Origin: a virus
Virus record (IMG/VR): IMGVR_UViG_3300006919_000287
Coordinates: 1 to 29,344 of that record
Strand: one strand, 5' to 3'
DNA length: 29,344 nucleotides
Below the pieces are notes generated by a model. The model was not told where the DNA came from. It made no database searches and worked only from the letters and a program-made list of their open reading frames with translations. How positions within the stretch are numbered: the stretch's first letter is position 1; each line of letters opens with the position of its first letter. Shown piece after piece: positions 17,427-21,546 of the stretch. Position numbers and translations under genes: made by a program.

Positions 17427-18581
17427 TTATCTAATAGCATATTTACCATAATTAGGCTTAGTAAGTTTATTTACTATTGAATACCTGAGACTATCTAGAG
17501 CGTGATTGTAAGCATCTATTGGTTTGTTAGTAAGCTGACCATTTTTGTCCTCTATGTATTTATAGTTTCTCAACTCTTTGATCGTATTAATACTATCCTC
17601 TGTAACGAATAGTTTGTATCTCCTGATCATATCAATACCGATATTAATAGATCCTTTAAAAGTGGGCTTTATATTCCATCCCATTCTATGTATCTCTTCT
17701 ATTGATTTCGGTTCTGCTGAGTCTGCAAATATCTCATCTCTTCTGTCAAGTCCTAATCTCTTAAATTCATTTGCTATATCCTGATTAGTCATCCCTGTTC
17801 GATATATATGCTCCTTTACGTACATATTATCTCCCATTGTAAATGTCTCCACTAAACTAGTAGGGTCGTTAGTAAATCCAAAGTCTAATCCGTACGATAT
17901 TCTTTTTGCTTCCTGAGGGATCTCTTTAATAGTTTGAAAGTTATATATTAAACTCCTAGACTGTCCTCTCTCTCCTAGTCCGTAAACTTTCCAATAGTTT
18001 TCGTCAATATCTTTTAATCTCTCAATCTCTTCCTTTATTACATCACTTAAAAACGGATTGTCTCTATATGTTGTTTGGTGAAATTCTACATCTGCTCTTG
18101 TTAAGACCTGATCATATATCCAATGAAACTCATCAGAGGGATTGTAATCAAGTACAACCTTCTCAGTAGTCCTGAATATTAACTGCTGCCAATCCTCATA
18201 ATTAAGTTCGTTAGCTTCATTAATAAATAACAAATCTCGCTTCCTACCTCTAATCTTTTGAGGCTCATCTAGACTTATAAATTCAATTCTATTGCCGTTC
18301 AGATAATACTCACTAGCACTCTTGCTATGATACATCTCATTATAAATACCATATCCTTTGATAATATCAAAAAAATCCCTCATAACAGTACCTCGTACCG
18401 CAGGGAATGTCTTTCTGCATATCGTAATAGTTTTATCAGTAGATCTATTGCAATAATCGAATATAATCCATAATAGTATGTTATAGGTTTTCCCTGATCT
18501 AGTTCCTCCCTGTTCTACTATTATCTTTTTATCAGATCTTGCTAAGTGTTTAAATACTTTATTCGTCGTAACTTCCCTCAT
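17427..18581 (-). CDS. terL: Terminase large subunit, 384 aa
   Basis: ATP-driven DNA packaging motor and nuclease. The ATPase half shows Walker A GGTRSGKT (residues 25-32), a RKTFPAVRGTV segment, and Walker B LLFINEANEL (about 116-125). The nuclease half shows YGLDFGFTNDP (first catalytic Asp), IFADSAEP (second) and DAYNHALDSLRY (third). The layout matches the Terminase_3/PBSX-type family. At 384 residues it is slightly short but holds all motifs. It overlaps the small subunit gene by 23 bases. Confidence 0.93.
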   Translation of the reverse strand: MREVTTNKVFKHLARSDKKIIVEQGGTRSGKTYNILLWIIFDYCNRSTDKTITICRKTFPAVRGTVMRDFFDIIKGYGIYNEMYHSKSASEYYLNGNRIEFISLDEPQKIRGRKRDLLFINEANELNYEDWQQLIFRTTEKVVLDYNPSDEFHWIYDQVLTRADVEFHQTTYRDNPFLSDVIKEEIERLKDIDENYWKVYGLGERGQSRSLIYNFQTIKEIPQEAKRISYGLDFGFTNDPTSLVETFTMGDNMYVKEHIYRTGMTNQDIANEFKRLGLDRRDEIFADSAEPKSIEEIHRMGWNIKPTFKGSINIGIDMIRRYKLFVTEDSINTIKELRNYKYIEDKNGQLTNKPIDAYNHALDSLRYSIVNKLTKPNYGKYAIR

Positions 18582-18915
18582 CTATGATTTTGACTTGAAA
18601 CAATCTTTCGCCTTCTGCACCTGTTATCTCTTGTCTCTCTATATATCCTCTCTTTTTTCCCTTAGTCTTTAAATAGAATATTGTTGCTGAGGTACTCCCA
18701 TCTCCTATTTGTTTATGTAATTGGCTCTCTGCAAAATCTAATGCTACATTCTGTATCTCTGCTACCTCTTTAGCAAATACAGGATCTTTATCTAGCCACT
18801 CATAAAATGTTGCTCTACCTATTCCCACTTGTTTACAGGCAGTCGTTACAACTCCTAGGCTCTTCTCTAAAGCCTGAATCATTGCATCCTTTTTTATATG
18901 TCCGGTTTTGTCCAT
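18559..18915 (-). CDS. terS: Terminase small subunit, 118 aa
   Basis: Residues 8-50 form a helix-turn-helix (ALEKSLGVVTTACKQVGIGR, then FYEWLDKDPVF) as in small terminase subunits that recognise the packaging start. A coiled-coil/oligomerisation part follows (residues 50-85), with KQIGDGSTSATIFYLKTKGK, a line common in this family. The end is acidic and probably meets the large subunit. The start overlaps the stop of the glycosyltransferase gene (TAATG), and the gene overlaps terL. Confidence 0.85.
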   Translation of the reverse strand: MDKTGHIKKDAMIQALEKSLGVVTTACKQVGIGRATFYEWLDKDPVFAKEVAEIQNVALDFAESQLHKQIGDGSTSATIFYLKTKGKKRGYIERQEITGAEGERLFQVKIIDEGSYDE

Positions 18916-19655
18916 TATATTCCTTTAATTGGTGTTTTCATAATCGGATTAAAGTCAAAACTTCTCTTGCTTTGTTTATCTCTTTTAATCACATCTTTAC
19001 CCCATTTTCTCTGTAACGCAAAGAATTGTTGTTTCTCTTTATCTAAGTTTCTATATGTCGCACATCCACCCTCCTGTTCTGCTTGTTTCACATTATAGTG
19101 TGCAAAGTTTACTCTTAAGCATCCTTTGTATTTATGTATATGTTGTAATGTAATATCGTAATCCTCCTTTAATGGTAATTCCTCATCATATCTCACTTCG
19201 CTACTTTTTAAATGAGCCTGAAAAGGTCCTCCTATATATTGTAAAGTACCAAATGGGGTATATTCTCTATATGCACCTTTATCTGTTACACAATTTAATC
19301 CCCAAAAATGGAAGCCCATCTCTTTAGTTATATTAGCTATGTTCTCAGAAAATTCCTCTAAGTCATTCATATTGAATTTAATTTGAGATTGCTCTTCCCA
19401 TCTACCAATATATGAACAGTCGTCATCAATAATAACAATACAATCTGCATCATCGTATAAATTATCTAATATCCAATTCCTTACCCTACATAAATTTCCC
19501 TGAGCTGAATCAGGACATACTACAATATCATTCCCATTTGCTCTATACTCTTCTGCTTCACTCTCTCTTACTACTAGCTTTACGTTAGGATAATGTATCT
19601 GTGTTATACTCTTCTCTGGTCTCTTATAAGATGGTGCAAAAAATTTAACTTTCAT
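18915..19655 (-). CDS. GREB1/TAGT-like glycosyltransferase, 246 aa
   Basis: The protein looks like a GT-A-fold glycosyltransferase of the GREB1/TAGT group, which comparative genomics has linked to sugars on modified DNA bases in phages. Seen: KFFAPSYKRPEKSITQI at the N-terminus, VVCPDSAQGNLCRVRNWIL, IVIIDDDCSYIGRW with the acidic metal-binding triad at 77-79, FWGLNCVTDKGAYREYTPF, IGGPFQAHLK, LPLKEDYDITLQHI and a conserved end RSFDFNPIMKTPIKG. All parts of the fold are present. It overlaps the ParB-like gene by 11 bases and follows a PAPS-reductase-like gene, which supports a joint role in DNA modification. Protein or RNA targets are not excluded. Confidence 0.75.
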   Translation of the reverse strand: MKVKFFAPSYKRPEKSITQIHYPNVKLVVRESEAEEYRANGNDIVVCPDSAQGNLCRVRNWILDNLYDDADCIVIIDDDCSYIGRWEEQSQIKFNMNDLEEFSENIANITKEMGFHFWGLNCVTDKGAYREYTPFGTLQYIGGPFQAHLKSSEVRYDEELPLKEDYDITLQHIHKYKGCLRVNFAHYNVKQAEQEGGCATYRNLDKEKQQFFALQRKWGKDVIKRDKQSKRSFDFNPIMKTPIKGI

Positions 19656-20262
19656 TCTGTATCTTGTTTATTGCTTCTGTTCCATTTATTACTCTTCCAA
19701 TTCCTTGGCTCCAGGGTTTTCCATTTGCTCTTTTTGCAGTCTCTGTTTTTAATCCAAATAATGTTTTAGCTTGAATCCAATCTATATCTGTATCAAATTT
19801 TAATATAAGATAATTACTCTGAGTATCTAGTTCAGTAGCAAAAGGTTTTTCGCTCTGTTCATTCATTGGGTTATTCATTTCCTGCACATCGTCATCTGTG
19901 TAAGGCACATCTAATCCCCACTCTCCTAGTTTATCCTGATCCCAATTATTTGCTAATATATCCCAATCCCACTCTCCAAATCCTGAATTGTCTTTAATTA
20001 AGAACTCCTTTTGCTGATCATCTGACAAATCTTTTGCTTTTATGATATAAACCTCATCTATTCTAGCATCTTGACAAGCCTTATATCTCATATTTCCTCC
20101 TAAGATAACATTGTCCTCATTTACTACAATAGGTCTAATCTCTAGCATCTCAGGAAATTCCTTTATACTTTTGACTAACTTCTTAAATTTATAGTCTTTA
20201 ATGATTCTAGGGTTATCAGGATTGATCCTAATATCTCCGATTTTTACTTTAGTGATCTGCAT
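19645..20262 (-). CDS. ParB-like nuclease-domain protein, 205 aa
   Basis: Residues 1-95 carry a ParB/sulfiredoxin-type fold: KIGDIRINPDNPRI, LVKSIKEFPEMLEIRPIVV, VILGGNMRYKA with the GGNMR motif at 55-59, and LIKDNSGFGEWDWDILA. The second part (YLILKFDTDIDWIQAK, LFGLKTETA) is a separate alpha/beta domain often seen in phage ParB proteins. I chose ATG 20262 over one 42 bases upstream because the protein then begins at the domain boundary and the ACGTTATAT motif ends at the start codon. ParB-fold proteins of this type bind CTP/ATP or cut DNA. Paired with a PAPS-reductase-like gene it recalls the IbrA/IbrB arrangement. Confidence 0.78.
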   Translation of the reverse strand: MQITKVKIGDIRINPDNPRIIKDYKFKKLVKSIKEFPEMLEIRPIVVNEDNVILGGNMRYKACQDARIDEVYIIKAKDLSDDQQKEFLIKDNSGFGEWDWDILANNWDQDKLGEWGLDVPYTDDDVQEMNNPMNEQSEKPFATELDTQSNYLILKFDTDIDWIQAKTLFGLKTETAKRANGKPWSQGIGRVINGTEAINKIQNES

Positions 20263-20271
20263 ATATAACGT
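20263..20271 (-). promoter_or_regulatory. ACGTTATAT motif, site 5, ahead of ParB-like gene
   Basis: ACGTTATAT on the minus strand directly abuts the ATG at 20262. A TATAAAA element lies 18 bases upstream in place of TACNAAA. It would place the ParB/glycosyltransferase/terminase genes under the same control as the structural genes. Confidence 0.45.
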
Positions 20272-20291
20272 ATTAAAATTTATTTCTTTTT

Positions 20292-21140
20292 TTATAGTCC
20301 ACAATAACCTGAATCACACTCATTAAAATCATCATCAAATAATTCAAATTGTGAGTTCCAATTTTTTATCTCATCATAACTAATGTCTGTCATCCATTGA
20401 GCATTGTTTACACTCTCTCTTTCTCTTTTAGCAAACCATTCTAACTTATTTGGATGCTTATCCCACATCTTTCTAAGTAACATTGGAGACTTATGGAAGC
20501 AACCTACACAGTTATTCATCCAAGCAAATCTAACAGGCTTATCTAACCAAAACTGTTCTATGGTATCTTTATATATATTAGAGTCTATTAGAGGAAAGCT
20601 AGGTTTCTGATATGGTATATCCTCCCATTTGTTTCTACCGTCTTTGTGTTTTCCGAATGTTGCTTTAAATTCACTAAGACCATCAGCATTGCATCTTTCT
20701 AACATATTCTTAGCTCTCCTAGTTTCATTGGCTCTGAATCCTATTCTCATTTCAATAGGTTCTCCTATCTGTTTAGCCCACCAATAAAAAATAGGTTCTA
20801 TTTTCATTTCTACTGTGCAAAACCTTTGAACCTTATTAGGCAAATAAACTTTATCTTTTCTAGTCGTTATATCGTCAAAAGTTTTTCCTGTAACCCAAGT
20901 AATCTTTCTACCTATAAATTGCTCTAAGTCTAACATAGTATAAACAATCATATCATCCTCAGCAGTTCCTATAAAAGGTGCTTGTATTCTATCCTCTATC
21001 TCTTGTCTTATTTTCTTATCAGGAAAAATACAATTTTTATCTTCAATTCTTACCAAAGAAAAAACATCATAGTCTGCAGGATAGTTAGCTGCAATATAGC
21101 TTGAAGTTTTACCTCCACTCAAACTATTTACTGTTTTCAT
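20292..21140 (-). CDS. PAPS-reductase-family PP-loop protein, 282 aa
   Basis: The N-terminus holds a PP-loop (SGGKTS, residues 8-13) as in ATP pyrophosphatases that adenylate or thiolate a substrate. Further family marks are RFCTVEMKIEPI (Cys108), MRIGFRANETRRA and WMNNCVGCFHKSPMLLRKM (Cys211, Cys214). Cys275 and Cys280 lie near the end (CDSGYCGL). The cysteines could hold an Fe-S cluster, as in DndC or some PAPS reductases. Phage members are thought to act in DNA or tRNA modification, not in sulphate assimilation, as no other sulphur genes are present. It overlaps the DnaA-like gene by 17 bases. Confidence 0.8.
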   Translation of the reverse strand: MKTVNSLSGGKTSSYIAANYPADYDVFSLVRIEDKNCIFPDKKIRQEIEDRIQAPFIGTAEDDMIVYTMLDLEQFIGRKITWVTGKTFDDITTRKDKVYLPNKVQRFCTVEMKIEPIFYWWAKQIGEPIEMRIGFRANETRRAKNMLERCNADGLSEFKATFGKHKDGRNKWEDIPYQKPSFPLIDSNIYKDTIEQFWLDKPVRFAWMNNCVGCFHKSPMLLRKMWDKHPNKLEWFAKRERESVNNAQWMTDISYDEIKNWNSQFELFDDDFNECDSGYCGL

Positions 21141-21546
21141 ATTCTTTAATTTGTTTATCGTAATTCTCTTTTACTATCTTACTCACTTCTGAAAGGAAAG
21201 GTTCTTTTAATGCTTTAATGTCCTCAATAATCATATTCTGCTTTTCCATTAAGTCAGCTTTCTTATTAGTCAATACATTTAACCATTTGTCTAGATCCTT
21301 ATTAAACTTTCTGTAATTGTTAAAATTATCTTTTGCATATAATGCAGTACAATGATCATATTTCTTGCCTCTACTCTTAAAATATCTCTCTATATCAGAC
21401 AGTCTGAATTTCTTTGTATGATACAATAAAAACACAACTAAAGATCGAGCATCTACATACTCCTGTTTCCTTGTGTTCTTAAATATATCTAATCCTGATA
21501 ATTCTTTTACTTTCTCTGCAATCTGATCCGCCTCTTTTACTTTCAT
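21124..21546 (-). CDS. DnaA domain IV-like DNA-binding protein, 140 aa
   Basis: Residues 34-74 (RSLVVFLLYHTKKFRLSDIE, then KKYDHCTALYAKDNF) follow the C-terminal DNA-binding domain of DnaA: helix, basic turn, and the DHxT signature here as DHCT at 64-67. The ATPase part of DnaA is absent. The remainder is a Lys-rich coiled coil. Such solo domain IV proteins may mark a phage origin or steal the host initiator. It overlaps the next gene by 17 bases and its own upstream neighbour by 4. Confidence 0.7.
   Translation of the reverse strand: MKVKEADQIAEKVKELSGLDIFKNTRKQEYVDARSLVVFLLYHTKKFRLSDIERYFKSRGKKYDHCTALYAKDNFNNYRKFNKDLDKWLNVLTNKKADLMEKQNMIIEDIKALKEPFLSEVSKIVKENYDKQIKEYENSK

Follow-up and report, generated by a model that had tools for sequence, protein, structure and literature searches.

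The window analysed here, a 29,344-base IMG/VR virus contig (IMGVR_UViG_3300006919_000287; 33.6% G+C) taken over its whole length, carries on its minus strand two overlapping genes, for a ParB-fold protein and a TAGT-family glycosyltransferase, which form a unit. Judged from sequence comparisons, this pair is likely a two-gene cassette that places a sugar onto phage DNA, the ParB protein serving as an adaptor with a partner-specific tail, and it probably does so without the usual base-oxidising enzyme. No end repeats were reported for the contig, which is possibly incomplete. An earlier reading made from the letters of the window alone (the sequence-only reading) had described three genes between a DnaA-like gene and the terminase, at 18915–21140, and all of these open reading frames are indeed present there, on the minus strand. 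The part of that reading that stands is the ParB and TAGT pair, probably DNA-modifying, with no gene detected for a hydroxylated base; the part that does not is the trio, with the thiolation route and the restriction-site argument, and the likeness to IbrA/IbrB is weak.

18915–19655, minus strand: TAGT-family glycosyltransferase, 246 residues (PF20691, E 2e-11; phrog_842, E 3e-18)
19645–20262, minus strand: ParB/sulfiredoxin-fold adaptor, 205 residues (PF02195, E 2e-6)
19645–19854, minus strand: partner-specific C-terminal tail of ParB, residues ~137–205 (from alignment and a tail-only search)

The glycosyltransferase had been called a GREB1-like, IDDD-type enzyme; it matches PF20691 (44.7 bits against a Pfam cut-off of 27.5) and phrog_842 and has a conserved DDD. 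The TAGT family, reportedly defined by Iyer et al. in 2013, is recognised here by the DxD-type metal motif (DDD, residues 77–79) together with ED at 164–165. Across 35–37 homologues, D78, D79 and D165 are invariant, and D77 and E164 are kept in at least 90%. AlphaFold2 modelled the protein with a predicted local distance difference test score (pLDDT) of 90.2 and a predicted template modelling score (pTM) of 0.90, giving a confident GT-A fold. The best PDB matches of this model are GT-A and nucleotide-sugar enzymes of modest similarity (template modelling score ~0.5), and a PDB sequence search using the glycosyltransferase profile returned nothing meaningful.

The partner gene starts at an ATG at 20262 that is kept in relatives, a TTG at 20304 being the less likely start. 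It had also been rightly seen as a ParB-fold protein: its N-terminal domain, the only part with a Pfam match, scores above the Pfam cut-off for PF02195, and both a profile search and a fold comparison match it to CTP-binding ParB/Noc structures. In the predicted structure the N-domain is confident and the linker poorly ordered. The tail of about 69 residues is common to the ParB proteins of glycosyltransferase loci, even where the N-domain has strongly diverged (L103, L109, L117 and L120). Two further observations concern this gene. The Javan291_0034 product (L109:5411-6001) is labelled 'DNA modification methylase', yet holds only a ParB domain and a glycosyltransferase-type tail; it lacks a methylase domain, and its annotation probably stems from ParB–methylase fusions. 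The order at L103, L104, L106 and L107 is ParB–glycosyltransferase–ParB, the last gene being an additional, short ParB-like one.

Used on its own as a query against viral contigs, the tail recovered 80 loci, all with a TAGT gene, which directly adjoins ParB in 79 of them; a TET/JBP gene was found in none of the 80. At the eightieth (L341), ParB and TAGT are separated by an FkbM-type methyltransferase gene, and the TAGT gene is cut off by the contig end. In the window, ParB and the glycosyltransferase gene share 11 nucleotides; among the loci the overlap is 11 nucleotides in 52 and 4 in 21. The TAGTs accompanied by the window-type tail constitute one group apart from the TET-linked TAGTs (one change, support 74/88). 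In a mirror-tree test, the ParB tail and N-domain both correlate with the glycosyltransferase (rho 0.78 and 0.73; partial 0.59 and 0.49), which suggests a weak preference for the tail. It is hardly credible that the protein is a plasmid-type partition ParB surrounded by unrelated cargo. The PF02195 and ParB/Noc matches and the CTP-binding N-domain fold would suit that role, but tail and partner enzyme change together, the overlap with the glycosyltransferase gene is of 4 or 11 nucleotides, the ParB has only 205 residues, and no ParA-like gene was seen next to it or among the scanned window proteins.

The pair is carried by Streptococcus phage Javan291 and by contigs binned or assigned to Bacteroides, Chitinophagaceae, Lentisphaerota, Phascolarctobacterium and Roseibacillus. 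In Microbacterium phages, the glycosyltransferase comes with a more distant tail (profile E 4e-6, two-protein test), and in Honeyfin and Jayden a UDP-glucose dehydrogenase gene follows the pair. FkbM-type methyltransferase genes (PF05050) are interposed between ParB and TAGT at L060:3264-3892, L095:5346-6001 and L341:3214-3866, and may methylate the transferred sugar; both kinds of neighbour fit a sugar transfer followed by decoration of the sugar. As a separate observation, the protein following the glycosyltransferase in marine contig L230 (10088-10660) has no Pfam match, and its counterpart in the Microbacterium phages lies one gene further on (L123:22183-22803), where it is called 'AAA-ATPase' in Honeyfin.

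Read along the minus strand, the order in the window is DnaA-like gene, PAPS-reductase-like gene (PAPS, phosphoadenosine phosphosulfate), ParB, glycosyltransferase, and small and large terminase subunits, and the DnaA-like gene is kept at the upstream side of this slot in relatives.

21124–21546, minus strand: DnaA domain IV-like gene, upstream border of the slot (PF08299, E 1e-4, below the Pfam cut-off)
20292–21140, minus strand: PAPS-reductase-like PP-loop protein, 282 residues (phrog_424, E 2e-20; PADLOC SspD, E 3e-10)
18559–18915, minus strand: terminase small subunit, downstream border of the slot (phrog_309, E 2e-7)
17427–18581, minus strand: terminase large subunit (PF04466, E 1e-24)

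At about 49 loci where ParB lacks the window-type tail, the slot just upstream of the terminase is filled by TAGT with TET/JBP (36) or by TET/JBP alone (13), the latter enzyme being identified by PF12851 at E 2e-10 to 2e-12. Mom (PF25680, E 4e-43) is directly preceded by ParB at 35 of its 36 loci (L185–L220), mostly with an overlap of some 21 nucleotides and with terminase genes after. The exchange is most evident between L008 and L009, which have ~99% DNA identity through the PAPS-reductase-like gene, an HNH gene and the ParB N-domain (104 of 106 residues) and are identical again at the terminase small subunit: between these flanks L008 carries Mom and L009 TAGT with TET, and neither the ParB tails nor the enzymes are related. 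L045 has the window-type tail and TAGT in this same setting. The ParB N-termini of Javan291 and Javan316, both at the terminase, share 85 of 113 residues (75%, residues 1–113); the Javan291 protein ends in the window-type tail and is followed by TAGT, and that of Javan316 is fused to an N6/N4 methyltransferase, a fusion also present in the slot of sister phage L247. We also drew 30 loci of the same lineage via the replicative helicase, which were not chosen for cassette genes: 13 of them have none of the genes sought, and L228 runs from the DnaA-like gene straight to the small terminase subunit. The best reading of these comparisons is that ParB is a shared adaptor whose tails are specific for different partner enzymes, in a slot where sister phages swap DNA-modifying effectors.

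Further observations concern the slot. PHROG 6059 members at L009:2425-3321, L011:1945-2763 and L121:1540-2340, annotated 'queuine tRNA-ribosyltransferase', match Tet_JBP (PF12851), and the label looks wrong. Among the slot contents of other sister phages, at L300:11650-13602, PTPS, radical SAM and GTP cyclohydrolase I genes, of 7-deazaguanine type, directly precede the small terminase subunit, and no ParB was seen in the stretch inspected; L298 has a PF01507 PP-loop protein with a GNAT in this place.

Because the same slot houses other DNA-modifying enzymes, we infer that DNA is the acceptor, and the earlier prediction that this group of enzymes glycosylates DNA probably holds for the ParB and TAGT pair. 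A protein target (capsid, terminase or a host protein), with ParB as a cofactor or regulator, is by comparison improbable. GREB1, which is related to the TAGTs, is linked to protein glycosylation, most enzymes of the GT-A fold have glycans and proteins as substrates, and the glycosyltransferase gene adjoins the terminase; against this, Mom, TET/JBP and the N6/N4 methyltransferases, which occur in the same slot with the same ParB N-domain, all act on DNA bases. In the cassette as we picture it, the ParB N-domain would be a shared adaptor binding DNA and/or nucleotide, the partner-specific tail would probably tether, recruit or activate the enzyme, and the GT-A-fold enzyme, with a nucleotide sugar as donor, would glycosylate a base of the phage DNA before packaging.

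The PAPS-reductase-like gene is an independent insertion, a separate occupant of the same region. Its dN/dS (the ratio of nonsynonymous to synonymous substitution rates) against the nearest relatives is 0.03–0.05, as for the ParB and glycosyltransferase genes, so all three are working, maintained genes under purifying selection. In the closest whole-locus relatives, L029 and L030, which are 82–99% identical to the window per 100 nucleotides (mostly ~90%) from the DnaA-like gene to the large terminase subunit, the gene is missing at the corresponding point and both flanks align. In the nearest relatives of the gene itself, L002 and L003, it lies directly before the small terminase subunit with no ParB or glycosyltransferase gene between. 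It occurs within 1.2 kb of a window-type-tail ParB at 1 of 62 loci having upstream room (L045, where PAPS, ParB and glycosyltransferase genes are together with an HNH gene intervening) and at none of the 30 helicase-sampled loci, and members of the same family also accompany Mom (L008, L213, L215 and L216) and TAGT with TET (L009). The neighbourhood comparison thus finds frequent separation for this gene and not for ParB and the glycosyltransferase, which rules out the trio as one unit. The proposal that the PAPS-like protein thiolates or aminates a base, which ParB and the glycosyltransferase then glycosylate, draws on the adjacency of the three genes in the window and, around the HNH gene, in L045; it is unsupported, because the gene is absent from the closest relatives and adjoins so few tail loci, and its company with Mom and TAGT plus TET makes it very improbable.

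The protein itself has the PP-loop motif SGGKTS and belongs with phrog_424, annotated 'phosphoadenosine phosphosulfate reductase'; the PADLOC match to SspD is partial (103 of 282 residues), and Pfam and NCBIfam scans gave no match, including to the PF01507 domain of the IbrA type. Five cysteines (C108, C211, C214, C275 and C280) are invariant over ten homologues and, as had been suggested, fit metal or Fe–S ligation, without being proof of it. PDB entry 21fy, 'PptA', has the CTT and NNCVGC motifs of the PAPS profile, at E 0.025 only, and a literature search turned up no paper describing this structure. Neither a cysteine desulfurase nor further Dnd/Ssp genes were found among the 20 Pfam-scanned window proteins, the other open reading frames being unscanned and the contig possibly incomplete. 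The likeness to IbrA/IbrB is weak: PAPS-reductase-like and ParB genes do stand side by side in the window, but its PAPS protein is of another, SspD-like branch and is not stably linked to ParB in relatives. An IbrA/IbrB-like arrangement is instead seen in the slot of L298 (11557-14942), with ParB, a 374-residue PF01507 PAPS-reductase-domain protein (SGGKDS), a GNAT protein and a second ParB.

Which base would receive the sugar depends on what else these phages encode. As the sequence-only reading had proposed, no supplier of a hydroxylated base was found: neither the window nor 18 related contigs nor the complete Javan291 and Honeyfin genomes show TET/JBP (PF12851) in a search that does detect the enzymes of L009 and L011, and a hydroxymethylase of thymidylate-synthase type (PF00303) is detected in 0 of these 21 records, the window being possibly a fragment. 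With no base-hydroxylating gene detected, the sugar may go onto an unmodified base, in the simplest case at an exocyclic amino group, as for the Mom and N6/N4 methyltransferase enzymes that share the slot; otherwise, the acceptor would be a base readied by an enzyme that we did not recognise. Direct glycosylation of an unmodified base is possible and unproven. A bolder form of this idea, in which the tailed ParB lets TAGT glycosylate a plain base directly, replacing the two-step route (oxidation or hydroxymethylation, then sugar transfer), and the slot serves as a plug-in platform with one adaptor re-tailed for various base-modifying enzymes, is tentative. On balance unlikely is a rival reading in which the substrate is a pyrimidine already hydroxylated or hydroxymethylated at position 5, whether by the host, by the product of a gene off the contig or by an enzyme from a family not recognised here. 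The characterised TAGT of phage T6 uses modified cytosine (PMC13216743), TAGT with TET fills the same slot in sister phages, and genes with C5- or N6/N4-methyltransferase-like matches occur elsewhere in a few of the glycosyltransferase contigs. This has to be set against the failure to find TET/JBP or thymidylate synthase in the records just listed, and against the spread of the tail and TAGT class over phages and prophage-like regions of Streptococcus, Bacteroides, Lentisphaerota, Verrucomicrobiota and Microbacterium, which makes one common unseen helper less likely.

Several points weigh against the DNA-glycosylating cassette as we read it. Known TAGTs use cytosine that is already hydroxylated or glucosylated, that of T6 extending glucosyl-hydroxymethylcytosine (PMC13216743), and direct action on a plain base is without precedent in the family. 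The metagenomic contigs are all possible fragments, and a base-preparing enzyme of an unrecognised family could escape detection. The ParB tail is modelled at low to middling confidence only, and the function of the cassette is read from sequence and predicted structure. Lastly, restriction-site statistics show no general protection.

These statistics had been invoked in the sequence-only reading, where dense GATC sites were taken for freedom from restriction. GATC does occur 122 times in the window against 100 expected from sub-words, but CATG is absent (64 expected from sub-words, 90 by first-order simulation), as is GGCC (10 expected). CATG is missing from nearly all phages of the lineage (L222–L301), whichever cassette they carry, and GGCC is avoided too, which suggests that their hosts share a restriction specificity against which the cassettes give no protection. 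The absence of CATG was rejected as a trace of the cassette, being equal in relatives with an empty slot. In the helicase sample, GATC is avoided in 0 of 10 loci with the glycosyltransferase versus 16 of 18 without it (rank test against empty loci, p ~2e-4), a contrast that amounts to only 2–3 independent tree contrasts. A wider set of 90 loci fails to repeat it (median 0.73 for glycosyltransferase loci; 0.04 for those that also have TET, which avoid GATC), and for CCGG a per-locus comparison gave no difference. GATC tracks lineage and not cassette, and with so few independent contrasts, unrepeated in the 90 loci, site statistics were dropped as evidence of protection.

TAGT, phage TET/JBP, Mom and the ParB–methylase fusions are known families, and each shares some aspects with the window pair. 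The T6-type TAGT, a beta-glucosyl-HMC alpha-glucosyltransferase (HMC, hydroxymethylcytosine; PF20691; PMC13216743), falls into the same Pfam and PHROG families as the window enzyme and shares with it the GT-A fold, the motifs DDD and ED, and a predicted action on phage DNA. However, its hydroxymethylcytosine is made by other phage enzymes and it has no ParB partner, whereas the window has a solitary TAGT that is coupled to a tailed ParB and for which no base-preparing enzyme was found. The TET/JBP and TAGT hypermodification systems of phages share the slot, the type of ParB N-domain, the TAGT family and the downstream terminase, and differ from the window class in their oxygenase, which was not found here, in their ParB tail and in their separate TAGT group. 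With Mom, the common points are a ParB directly upstream, overlapping genes and a downstream terminase, and Mom needs no prepared base; its chemistry is of acyltransferase type and its ParB tail is another. The ParB–N6/N4 DNA methyltransferase fusions of Gram-positive phages (phrog_498; Javan316) have the same pre-terminase place and an N-domain 75% identical to that of Javan291, but the methylase is fused to ParB, where the window has a separate glycosyltransferase. The CmoX/CmoY cytosine carboxymethylation loci likewise have a ParBc protein beside phage DNA-modification genes, with different enzymes (PMC12783734).

In our literature searches we found no description of the link between tail and partner or of effectors being swapped behind a single ParB N-domain, and the gene neighbourhood may be partly on record. 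Two published observations gain from it. Solitary TAGTs without a known acceptor were counted in 288 of 753 glycosyltransferase-bearing genomes and left unexplained (PMC13216743). For ParBc proteins next to phage modification genes, the role was stated as unknown (PMC12783734). A tail that changes together with its partner offers a testable answer to both, namely an exchangeable adaptor. Cultured phages such as Microbacterium Honeyfin and Jayden carry the pair, and the acceptor base and sugar could be read from their virion DNA. If the acceptor proved to be an unmodified base, the pair would represent a new route to glycosylated DNA.

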